Made by a program: the position numbers and the translations under genes. A stretch of DNA of 39,917 nt from Deltaproteobacteria bacterium. GTDB taxonomy: Bacteria > Bdellovibrionota_B > Oligoflexia > Oligoflexales > Bog-1112. Shown one piece after another: positions 10,002 through 34,460 of the stretch. Where the stretch lies: the NCBI GenBank assembly GCA_023250635.1, contig JAHFAI010000015.1, positions 1 to 39,917 on the forward strand. The letters are read 5' to 3'. Each line of letters opens with the position of its first letter. Positions within the stretch are counted from its first letter, which is position 1. Below the pieces are notes generated by a model that saw nothing but the letters and a program-made list of their open reading frames with translations, made no database searches and was not told the DNA's origin.

Positions 10002-10167
10002 AATTAGGCGCTGGCGCGAAAGCGCCAGCGCCGTGTCCTGACGAACGCAGTGAGGAAGGATCTTTCACATAACATCCGGATATCACGTGACAGATCCTTC
10101 GTTGCTTTGCTCCTCAGGACACGTCGCGGCACAAAATATGCTATTTCGCGCCAGCGACTAGCTAATT
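10002..10167. repeat. MITE-like imperfect inverted repeat
   Basis: The arms run from AATTAGGCGCTGGCGCGAAA (10003 on) to GGATCT (10057-10062), and from AGATCC (10093-10098) to TTTCGCGCCAGCG...CTAATT (10144-10167). Read inward, both arms share CGCTGGCGCGAAA, a GTGTCCTGA box and GAAGGATCT. The left arm itself contains the nested palindrome CTGGCGCGAAAGCGCCAG. The same module, more perfectly preserved, flanks the transposase remnant at 32129-33306. The unit here has both ends but no transposase, as expected of a non-autonomous miniature element. It abuts the truncated LamG gene. Confidence 0.7.
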
Positions 10168-28797: not shown

Positions 28798-28846
28798 CAA
28801 ACTTCACTCCGCATAAAAATAGTCATTGCTGCATTCGTCAGCTCGT

Positions 28847-28868
28847 CATCCTGAGCGTAGCGAAGGAC
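28847..28868. repeat. Solitary CCTGAGC-GAAGGA repeat motif
   Basis: The stretch CCTGAGCGTAGCGAAGGACC in the glpD upstream region matches the core of the larger repeats (GTCCTGAGC...GAAGGATCT) at 10030-10062, 32162-32188, 33247-33275 and 39782-39810. It has no flanking IS end or palindrome here, so it may be a decayed remnant or an independent insertion of the common motif. Confidence 0.45.
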
Positions 28869-29035
28869 CTCCCAAGCCTACTTCAACTCTGCAAGCTAGC
28901 AAGCTGCGAGGGGATGTCAATCGACTGCTGCAGCGATCCCGCCAAGGCTACTGAGCATCTTATAGTGGGAGAGATTCGAGGAATATCATAAAAGCTATTG
29001 CGTTTATGTAACTCTCTATTCACAAGGAAAATCAG

Positions 29036-31720: not shown

Positions 31721-31786
31721 CTCTCCTGCGAGTAGCTGTTAGTAGCCATCAAAAAAGGTTTCTCACCATACCACCGCAAAGGCTAG

Positions 31787-32130
31787 GGAGAAGCCCATCA
31801 CCAGCCTTGTGGATTTCGCTCCTCGCCACCCCCAGCATGGCAGGAGGCGGCTCGTCGAAGTCAGGTGCGGAAACGCAAGCTGTTTCTCCTCCATGCCTGC
31901 CACAGCTTGTTCGATTATTGCGTCACCGTTCTTGGGTTTAGCGAGGCAGAAAGCTACCTGCGTTGCCAGGTGGCAGGAATCTGCTCTCGTTTTCCCGCAG
32001 TGCTTGCCGATCTTGCAGCAGGAAAAATCAGCCTCTGCGTCGCGGGTAAGCTTGCTCCTCGTCTCAGCGAGAAAAACCAACACCGTCTCTTGCCAGCTTG
32101 CCACGGTAAAACAAAACAGGAGGCCGAGAT
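31787..32130 (+). pseudogene. HNH-endonuclease-type (DUF222-like) N-terminal domain, frameshifted and truncated
   Basis: From the in-frame GTG at 31865 the frame reads KRKLFLLHACHSLFDYCV, LGFSEAESYLRCQVAGICS, FPAVLADLAAGKISLCVAG, then LSEKNQHRLLPACHGKTKQE. This follows the helical N-terminal region of the large HNH-endonuclease family ('SLF-YC---LGFSE--AY-RI-A-R----P-V---L--G-LSL', '-L---N---LL----GKSK-E'). The preceding coding piece RRLVEVR is in a different frame (frameshift near 31858-31866). The gene is cut at 32129 by the 80-bp inverted repeat, well before where the HNH motif would be. The 3' half is not on the far side of the element. Confidence 0.5.
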
Positions 32131-32208
32131 AATTAGGCCGTGGCGCGAAAGCGCCACGGCCGTGTCCTGAGCCGAAGGCGAAGGATCTTTCGCGGGTTAG
32201 CACGGTCT
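32129..32208 (+). repeat. Left 80-bp terminal inverted repeat
   Basis: Contains AATTAGGCC outer end, nested palindrome, GTGTCCTGAGCC...GAAGGATCT core and TTAGCACGGTCT (32197-32208) at the junction with transposase DNA. Matches the right arm at every position. The outer end coincides with the break in the HNH-type gene. Confidence 0.85.
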
Positions 32209-32258
32209 GTTTTAAACACTTTCTAATTTTTCTAGCAAAGAACGTTCCCGCAATTCAT

Positions 32259-32951
32259 TTACGCAACTCTTTTCTTTTTTTCGATCCGATGGTTGATTAA
32301 TTGCCGTATATTGAAGCCAAAAATAGACGCGTAGCCAGCTGCCAATGTTCCAGAATCCGATTTCATTCTGCTGCGTCCTAATTGTCCCCCATGTTTTACA
32401 TGTCCAATCAAGGGCTCTATACCCGCCCGTCGATTTCTGAGTTGGAGGGCTTCTTGAGCGAGCGCTGTCGATACTTTTCCAGGCTTGTTTGGCTTCTGCA
32501 TGCCGATGGTGGTTATTTTTTTTGCTATCACTTTGTTGCAATTTTTCAAGCTCCAGTATCCTTTGTCGGTAGCAACCGACTTTAATTTTCCGTCCCCCAA
32601 TAATCTTACATGCTCTCCCAAAAGTTCCTGAAAAGAGAGTTTGTCGTTCATTTGCAAATTCAATGACTGTGCTACCATCATGAAATTTCCTTTGATGCGC
32701 CCGAGTTGAAAAACTCCACCGAATTCGTGAGGTTTCCCGGTTTTTCCTTTGCTGACGCAAGCTACTGCCTGCGCATGGAGAGAAAGAATTTTGCCAGCCT
32801 TTATGGCATTTTTTCGGGTGAAGTGCGCTACATCGAGAAGGTAGCGCCAGGCATGAGACTTGATTTGATTTACTCCACGACGAATACTCCATGGCATCCG
32901 CTTTAGGGAATTTGCATCGATCTGGGAACACAATGTGACGATAGGTTTCAT
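32259..32951 (-). pseudogene. IS5-family transposase, 5'-truncated
   Basis: About 230 residues of a DDE transposase C-terminal part. Recognisable pieces are KILSLHAQAVACVSKGKTGKPHEFG (family 'S-HAPEVECI-KGK---P-EFG'), SVATDKGYWSLKN with the second catalytic Asp, and the third-acid region RNRRAGIEPLIGHVKHGGQLGRSRMK, with Glu in IEPLIGH. It ends GYASIFGFNIRQLINHRIEKKK. The N-terminal DNA-binding region and the first catalytic Asp are missing, because the frame ends near 32951 where GIY-YIG sequence begins on the other strand. It cannot be active by itself. A diverged relative lies at the right window edge. Confidence 0.78.
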
Positions 32952-32969
32952 TTGGTTTTTTACACAGCG

Positions 32970-33238
32970 GTGCAGATCTGCATACTGGCAGCACCGGTGA
33001 GCTCAAAAATCGGGTTTATTTGCATAGAAATCGACTTATCGATGGTTTCACGAAAAAATATAATGTATTTCGCTTGGTTTACTTTGAGGGATTCTCCAGT
33101 ATTGAAGAGGCGACTCTTCGAGAGAAGCAAATAAAAGGCTACAATCGAGCGAAGAAAAATGCATTGGTTACTAAAATGAATGAGAATTGGAGAGATTTGT
33201 ACGATGTTTTAAGTGAAAAAGAAACTAGACCGTGCTAA
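32970..33238 (+). pseudogene. GIY-YIG endonuclease-domain gene, damaged at its 5' end
   Basis: The C-terminal two-thirds of a UPF0213/GIY-YIG family protein is clear: ELKNRVYLHRNRLIDGF, TKKYNVFRLVYFEGFSSIEE, ATLREKQIKGYNRAKKNALV, MNENWRDLYDVL. The usual beginning 'YVYILAS--NGTLYIGVT' is reduced to a piece reading CILAAPV in another frame (around 32979-32999), so the GIY and YIG strands and about ten residues are lost and the frame is shifted. The reading frame ends with TAA at 33236-33238 inside the right inverted repeat. It lies head-on to the truncated transposase, so the two fragments were joined by rearrangement or nested insertion. Confidence 0.6.
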
Positions 33239-33306
33239 CCCGCGAAAGATCCTTCGCCTTCGGCTCAGGACACGGCCGTGGCGCTTTCGCGCCACGGCCT
33301 AATTAT
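33227..33306 (-). repeat. Right 80-bp terminal inverted repeat
   Basis: Reverse complement of the left arm without mismatch. The inner AGACCGTGCTAA (33227-33238) supplies the last codons and stop of the GIY-YIG frame. The outer end marks where the small lipoprotein gene loses its own sequence and reads into the repeat. Confidence 0.85.
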
Positions 33307-33540
33307 TTCTGGTTCTCCTGAGCCGGGTATGCCTAAAAGACTCAATACTTCGCTTGAATTGGTAGTAGCATCAAAATCAAGAAAAACTAGCGCATTGTTT
33401 ACCTGGGGCTTGCCGACTGCTTCTGCAGATGCCTGCAAGGGCAGTGGCGAATCAAAATTCGCTCCCCTCTCTTCTTGAGTTCTTGTCTTGCATGCGATTG
33501 TCGCAAAGATTATCAGGGTAAAAACCACCGCCCTTCTCAT
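33265..33540 (-). pseudogene. Small lipoprotein gene, 3' end replaced by repeat
   Basis: From ATG 33540 (GAGG 6 bases upstream) the product begins with a lipoprotein signal (RRAVVFTLIIFATIAC, lipid Cys 17). About 60 residues with no recognised domain follow (SPLPLQASAEAVGKPQVNNA, LVFLDFDATTNSSEVL). After GSGEPE the frame enters the right inverted repeat at 33306 and reads RPWRESATAVS to a stop at 33265. The natural C-terminus is therefore missing. An upstream in-frame GTG (33552) overlaps the EamA stop as GTGA; either way the gene is coupled to the transporter gene before it. It may still yield a short lipoprotein. Confidence 0.5.
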
Positions 33541-33548
33541 CAAAAACC

Positions 33549-34460
33549 TCACTTAAGCGAAGAGATAAGCAGAGCGATAAAAACTACCGCCATCCCTAGG
33601 CCATCCCAAAGAGCAAAATGCTCCCCCAAAAACATGCTTCCCAAAACCGAGGTAGCAATCGCCACAGCCCCGCTAAAAATTGCAGCGCTACTTACCGGTA
33701 CTCGCCGAAGGCCGTAAGCCCACAGGGGATACACCGTCAAGGTGAGCAAGCCGCTTAACAGCAACAAAGGATAGCAATGCCAGGGCCAAGTCATTATTCC
33801 AGCATACTGCTGAGGACTGGGGATTTCGTAAAAAAGAACAAATGAAATACCTACGGAAGTCACTGTTCCTGACACAAGAGCCGTGCCAAGACCAGTGACT
33901 CGACCTGCAATTTTTTTGCTAAATATAGAATATAAAGCGAGGGGGAACATGGCCAAAAAGACGATGCTATCACCGTAGACTGAACCACTGTGGGGGACAC
34001 TCAAAAAGAAGTTGTCAATATTGATTATAAAAATCCCCAGCATCGCCAACAAAATTGCTAACTGCTTAGCCAAACTCAAACGTTCGTGCAGCAAAAGCAC
34101 CGCGAGAACCGCAATTACCACGGGAAGACTGCAGGTCACGATCCCGGCAGAAGTTGCCGTGGTGTACTGGAGACCATGGTAGAAAATAAGATTAAAGAGC
34201 AGGCCAGCACAAAGTACTTGGGCAAGCAAATATCCCCAATCAGTGCCAGTCAGTGCCCCAAGGGGGTGATGTGCCGACACCAAGGTGAACCAGCGTCGAT
34301 AATAAAGAAAACCAGCACAAAGCGCACAGAGGAGAAAGCGGATAAAGACAAAGGTATAAACGGACATATAACCGCTGAGGTATTTGCCTATAACGACATT
34401 AGTACCGTTGAATAACTGGGCCAGGGTCAGGCAAAGCGAACAAAGGAGTAATGCACCCAT
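33549..34460 (-). CDS. EamA/DMT-family transporter
   Basis: Ten-helix drug/metabolite transporter with two EamA repeats, 303 residues. It opens with LAQLFNGTNVVIGKYL and a YTFVFIRFLLCALCAGFL helix. The first repeat ends LAILLAMLGIFIINID; the second begins near YGDSIVFLAMFPLALYSIFSKK and ends GAVAIATSVLGSMFLGEHFALWDGLGMAVVFIALLIS, the standard C-terminal pattern. ATG 34460 has GGGGAGG at 6-base spacing. It diverges from the xdh operon across about 110 bases. A role in exporting a metabolite is the family expectation; a link to purines is only positional inference. Confidence 0.88.
   Translation of the reverse strand: MGALLLCSLCLTLAQLFNGTNVVIGKYLSGYMSVYTFVFIRFLLCALCAGFLYYRRWFTLVSAHHPLGALTGTDWGYLLAQVLCAGLLFNLIFYHGLQYTTATSAGIVTCSLPVVIAVLAVLLLHERLSLAKQLAILLAMLGIFIINIDNFFLSVPHSGSVYGDSIVFLAMFPLALYSIFSKKIAGRVTGLGTALVSGTVTSVGISFVLFYEIPSPQQYAGIMTWPWHCYPLLLLSGLLTLTVYPLWAYGLRRVPVSSAAIFSGAVAIATSVLGSMFLGEHFALWDGLGMAVVFIALLISSLK

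Follow-up and report, generated by a model that had tools for sequence, protein, structure and literature searches.

Perfect inverted repeats that enclose remains of both a transposase and a GIY-YIG nuclease gene raise the question of whether one mobile element or two separate relics are preserved at this locus, which lies in a 39,917-nucleotide stretch of DNA from a Deltaproteobacteria bacterium (the window). We put the probability at about 85% that positions 32136-33299 represent an internally deleted, non-autonomous form of a ~2-kb IS5-like DDE transposon with a GIY-YIG gene, an estimate that includes the mechanism and gene capture proposed below. This reading is based on the termini, the target duplication, transposase-less units, an intact homologue and linkage in four genomes.

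Architecture of the element

The preliminary description had reported perfect 80-nt inverted arms around half a transposase and a GIY-YIG gene missing its first strands, with the stop codon of the nuclease gene supplied by the arm. Each of these features was recovered. In a search of the window's own genome, 32129-32208 (+) and 33227-33306 (-) were inverted and 100% identical over 80 nt; with their flanks included, the arms were 97% identical over 88 nt. The target duplication lies within the outermost 7 nt of each arm (ATAATTA); therefore, the transposon itself runs from 32136 to 33299 and measures 1164 bp. Its features are as follows.

32130..32135, no strand: left target-site duplication TAATTA (9 of 15 full units have exact 6-bp direct repeats)
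32136..32161, + strand: outer hairpin of the left arm, GGCCGTGGCGC-GAAA-GCGCCACGGCC, which derives from the IS terminus GTCGCTGGCGCGAAA
32162..32188, + strand: inner palindrome of the left arm, GTGTCCTGAGCCGAAGGCGAAGGATCT, resembling CGTC-tagged REPs
32189..32208, + strand: left arm, innermost common part TTTCGCGGGTTAGCACGGTC, identical in both arms
32209..32258, - strand: transposase 3' flank, common to a second arm copy on contig C93
32259..32951, - strand: IS5-like DDE transposase, 3' half (59% identity over 222 aa to the G041 transposase)
32972..32990, no strand: internal-deletion joint, containing the palindrome TGCAGATCTGCA; here transposase homology stops at aa 223-224 and GIY-YIG homology begins at about residue 18
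32978..33238, + strand: GIY-YIG nuclease without its first strand (Pfam PF01541), stop codon in the right arm
33227..33299, - strand: right arm, identical inverted copy of 32136-32208
33300..33305, no strand: right target-site duplication TAATTA

The outer hairpin folds as DNA into an 11-bp stem and recurs at the ends of dispersed units. The nuclease stop codon is the TAA at 33236-33238, and contig C2 ends within another arm-plus-nuclease copy in which the stop codon also lies in the arm. On contig C93, an arm is accompanied by flank from the transposase side; C2 and C93 have near-identical versions of the innermost arm part, and ~60 nt of the transposase 3' flank past the arm are nearly identical in L004.

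Two observations concern the surroundings of the element. The final 13 codons of a lipoprotein-like gene (33265-33552) come from the right arm, and its C-terminus may therefore have been altered by the insertion; the gene had no match in the family's seven other genomes, the nearest relatives belonging to other genera. On the left flank (31763-32135), the open reading frames resemble, by eye, a decayed nuclease-type gene and gave no Pfam match.

A single internal deletion

The transposase fragment corresponds to aa 224-461 of the transposase in G041, a genome from the window's order, with homology reaching to ~32987. It keeps the second D (DKGYW) and the E (GIEP) of the catalytic triad, and the first D is absent. 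The GIY-YIG fragment begins at about residue 18 and shares 60% identity with the intact G041 nuclease across 65 aa. Its PF01541 score was 35.3 bits, against 52.1 for G041 and 57.1 for a nuclease on contig C22 (cut-off 22.6). The first strand is gone and YTG has become HTG at the joint, leaving the catalytic strands not intact.

Each remnant is an open frame as far as a single joint (~32972-32990), and the two truncations are therefore attributed to one event: a single internal deletion, with its joint near 32980, evidently took the 5' ends of both divergent genes. Measured against the divergent layout in G033, the window has lost transposase residues 1-223, the DNA between the genes and ~17 nuclease residues, which amount to ~0.85 kb; added to 1164 bp, this approximates the 2080 bp of the G041 element. 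The earlier wording of degraded cargo was thus too strong, because both remnants are open frames with a single deletion joint. Nor are they two gene fragments locked up by chance; they form the deletion derivative of one transposon.

The perfect arms might reflect recent mobilization in trans or, alternatively, gene conversion within an old, immobile relic. Conversion would keep the arms equal, and the arms of the G041 element have diverged whereas those in the window have not. However, the interior frames are undamaged except at the one joint, as expected if the unit arose recently and no conversion took place, and we judge an old converted relic unlikely.

Dispersed short units and target duplication

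The preliminary description had suggested a non-autonomous unit and a search for the arm elsewhere in the genome. A non-autonomous unit is supported, and an 80-nt search returned about 58 arm matches in the window's own genome, around other interiors and with 6-bp duplications. Most of the matches form inverted pairs that make up transposase-less units of 138-160 bp. Fifteen complete units, the window element included, could be delimited. The motif TAnnTA adjoins 26 of their 30 ends, and an exact direct 6-mer flanks 9 of the 15 on both sides, compared with a mean of 2.7 when right flanks were permuted; none of 20,000 such permutations reached nine. Among units with a non-palindromic left 6-mer, there were five direct matches and no inverted one. 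Because the 6-mers match directly and not inverted, they represent a 6-bp target duplication that lies outside the repeat.

With terminal inverted repeats (TIRs), target duplications, no working transposase and many short copies, these units have the properties of MITEs. They differ from known MITEs in that their ends are double hairpins, and the window copy retains parts of two genes. Another complete MITE-type unit of the same family occupies 10007-10160 of the window, with unmatched outer 6-mers (TAATTA and TAGCTA). As for an intact parent transposon or transposase in this genome's assembly, none was found, only contig-end fragments (C2 and C82).

The dispersed units also resemble REPIN doublets in consisting of two inverted hairpins, and the arms could accordingly be ascribed to a RAYT/REPIN system with the DDE transposase as an incidental neighbor. 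We consider this very improbable. IS200/IS605 elements make no larger target duplication (PMC2817692), in conflict with the 6-bp duplications observed here, and the same terminus bounds DDE transposases. The element shares with RAYT-REP units (REPtrons) a nuclease-type gene flanked by inverted, genome-abundant palindromes, whereas the gene here is GIY-YIG instead of an HUH tyrosine transposase and the palindromes are of the CGTC type instead of the GTAG type. A search for a Y1 (HUH tyrosine) transposase (PF01797) was negative in this genome and positive in six controls, and a RAYT origin of the arms was rejected for this assembly.

Related transposons in other genomes

An element with both genes intact was identified in G041, which belongs to another family of the same order. 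It spans 2080 bp, is bounded by TAGCTA, has homologous arms and encodes an uninterrupted 465-aa transposase and an uninterrupted 115-aa GIY-YIG protein. Its nuclease gene lies in tandem with the transposase gene and not divergently, indicating that the cassette was rearranged. Three partial linked copies were found beyond G041, one in G033 and two in G031. In G033, the two genes are divergent with 123 bp between the apparent start codons, and the transposase has an in-frame internal deletion; in at least two deletion products found in G031, the arm leads straight into the 3' end of the nuclease gene. Linkage of transposase and nuclease with composite arms is seen in four genomes from three families of one order. 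The earlier idea that the arm and the nuclease travel together agrees with the window, C2, several G031 loci and the intact G041 element.

REP-like repeats are dense in this genome, so two of them could flank two unrelated old relics, an IS5 remnant and a GIY-YIG remnant, trapped between them by chance. This is extremely improbable given the recurrence of transposase, nuclease and arm in four genomes and three families and the contradicting intact G041 copy. The matching TAATTA duplication outside the arms and the continuity, at C2 and in G031, of the arm with the 3' end of the nuclease gene also argue against it, and in favor of one internally deleted transposon.

The G041 transposase contains a DUF772 domain (PF05598, E=1e-12) and, as read by eye, a DDE triad composed of a D, DKGYW and GIEP. 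NCBIfam scores of the transposase were all below the curated cut-offs: 174 bits for transpos_IS5_1 (cut-off 275), 143 for ISNCY_1 (325) and 66 for IS1182 (270). The element is IS5-like in its DUF772 N-terminal domain, full-length IS5_1 alignment, TIRs and target duplication. It departs from this group in the 6-bp TAnnTA duplication, the ~73-nt ends made of hairpin plus REP, and the GIY-YIG gene. A 6-bp target duplication is unusual for IS5. Plasmid-borne transposase relatives, 25-28% identical among the matches listed, were left out of the analysis.

A composite arm

Transposase relatives in other groups show the origin of the outer hairpin in a simple terminus. A Legionellaceae relative has GTCGCTGGCGCGAAA ends and a direct TAGTTA duplication, and a Bacteriovoracaceae relative has TAGCTA and the simple terminus GTCGCTGGCGCGAAA or a close variant, with no hairpin. 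The arm is, by comparison of its parts, composite, with an outer hairpin built on this IS terminus and an inner palindrome like CGTC-tagged REPs. It had been noted that the arms are much longer than typical IS5 ends; this is explained by the addition of a REP-like palindrome to an IS end.

The alignment of GTGTCCTGAGCCGAAGGCGAAGGATCT with the CGTC-tagged repeat CGTCATCCTGAGCGNAGCGAAGGACC gave a local score of 19 (shuffle maximum 13). At the tag position, the inner arm has CGTG in the window but CGTA in G041, and the stem resembles the genome's own CGTC REP. This repeat, of the CGTCATCCTGAGCG type found around the C22 nuclease, occurs in 81 CGTC-tagged copies, against 0 for the reversed control; one of the 81 lies in the window at 28844-28873. 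A REP-like inner arm was present in all six REP-armed transposons of the order (scores 16-20) and in none of four transposons without a nearby GIY-YIG gene (G008, G012, L157 and L163; scores 5-10), an association in a small sample. In two of the six (G011 and G025) the nuclease region is deleted, so a former nuclease is presumed there.

CGTC-tagged REPs were defined in 2013 and apparently lacked a dedicated transposase (Di Nocera et al. 2013, PMC3733652). The group takes in the Neisseria dRS3 and the Rickettsia RPE-6/RPE-4 repeats and spans at least five phyla. The repeats described here share their CGTC head and short palindromic stem, and the CCA tail is also present at loci outside the window's phylum. 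Unlike the published CGTC REPs, for which no associated transposase was found (PMC3733652), they enclose a GIY-YIG gene between inverted copies.

GIY-YIG nucleases between inverted REPs

On contig C22 of the window's genome, an intact GIY-YIG gene lies between inverted CGTC REPs (L034, 909-1381), and it is probably the resident REP-linked nuclease. Strong flanking inverted repeats within 300 bp were detected at 6 of 25 GIY-YIG loci of the order, in comparison to 0 of 111 control ORFs; several other loci had weaker or more distant ones. Beyond the order, 13 plasmid or chromid loci from cyanobacteria, Bacteroidota and proteobacteria were chosen among tblastn matches blind to their flanks. Inverted palindromes, mostly of the CGTC..GGATCCA type, flank 12 of these 13 loci. 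Random controls at the same loci reached the score at 63 of 1950 positions, all 63 in one Photobacterium locus, which is the one without flanking repeats.

CGTC-type matches had a median density of 9.1 per Mb in 12 genomes with the nuclease and 1.1 per Mb in 44 without it (one-sided Mann-Whitney p = 6e-4). These 56 genomes include the window's, kinship is uncorrected and the twelve contain the near-identical neighbors G022 and G028. A reversed control pattern showed no difference.

In a phylogenetic tree built from a short alignment, with most inner branches weak, the transposon-borne nucleases formed one clade (89/83; three of four 96/80) inside the REP-associated family. A single clade suits one capture event. 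Other single-domain GIY-YIG proteins of about 90-100 aa, presumably of the YhbQ type (a name given here from sequence features), are similar in domain content and size. They form a separate clade (100/100), and these paralogues in the same genomes have no flanking inverted repeats. The nucleases gave no defence-family match.

The GIY-YIG gene may nevertheless be a passive passenger with no role in transposon or REP movement, which we regard as possible but doubtful. Related transposases with intact 5' ends in G008 and G012 have no GIY-YIG gene, so the nuclease is not required by every member; its orientation varies between elements, and its catalysis is predicted from sequence. Against a passenger stand the stand-alone relatives between inverted REPs in three other phyla and in the window's own phylum, the way the nuclease tracks REP density among relatives, and the restriction of this palindrome type to arms of elements in which the nuclease is present or probably once was.

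Proposed mechanism and significance

In the mechanism that we propose, the DDE transposase would cut at the IS-derived outer hairpins and insert the element at TAnnTA. Gap repair with internal deletion would leave arms around shortened interiors, and transposase made elsewhere could move the shortened units as MITEs. The nuclease would have been captured once, palindrome included, from a free-standing unit that lay between CGTC-type REPs, and the captured palindrome would have become the inner half of the arm. The nuclease probably nicks or cleaves this palindrome, and repair of the break would then favor copying of the element. We infer from anatomy and association that the MITEs are moved by the DDE transposase and that action of the nuclease on the palindrome helps the units to spread.

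CGTC REPs were described in 2013 as lacking a dedicated transposase, and the GIY-YIG nuclease is a candidate for such an enzyme. We give even odds to the wider proposal that this small family is the missing enzyme of CGTC REPs across phyla, recognizing the palindrome and forming mobile REP-GIY-REP units, and that, in the lineage to which the window belongs, capture by an IS5-like transposon produced a two-nuclease transposon with composite arms and a large number of MITEs. Two later papers citing PMC3733652 that were searched for GIY make no mention of it. A literature search that included few subscription papers and no preprints found no work joining GIY-YIG with REPs, apart from one co-mention judged incidental by its title. 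A GIY-YIG protein between inverted CGTC REPs offers a specific enzyme to purify and test, and its joining, together with the palindrome, to a DDE transposase would give REP-like repeats a new way of originating and spreading.

Occupied and unoccupied sites of the nuclease unit

Comparison of related strains revealed sites with and without the REP-GIY-REP unit. In Azospirillum lipoferum (L213, 1874-2386), the unit lies within the suf operon between sufB and sufC, and three Azospirillum species have no unit between these genes. In Sphingobium strains TomTYG74 and TomTYG64, a solitary REP-like palindrome is found where other strains have REP-GIY-REP, and TomTYG72 has neither. These unoccupied sites represent either pre-insertion or post-loss states. 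The lone palindrome at the Sphingobium loci L220 and L221 is a two-headed CGTC palindrome, as though a single REP were either the insertion site of the unit or what its excision leaves behind. In Rhizobium CIAT894 (L209, 610-1755), an annotated IS4-family transposase adjoins the nuclease.
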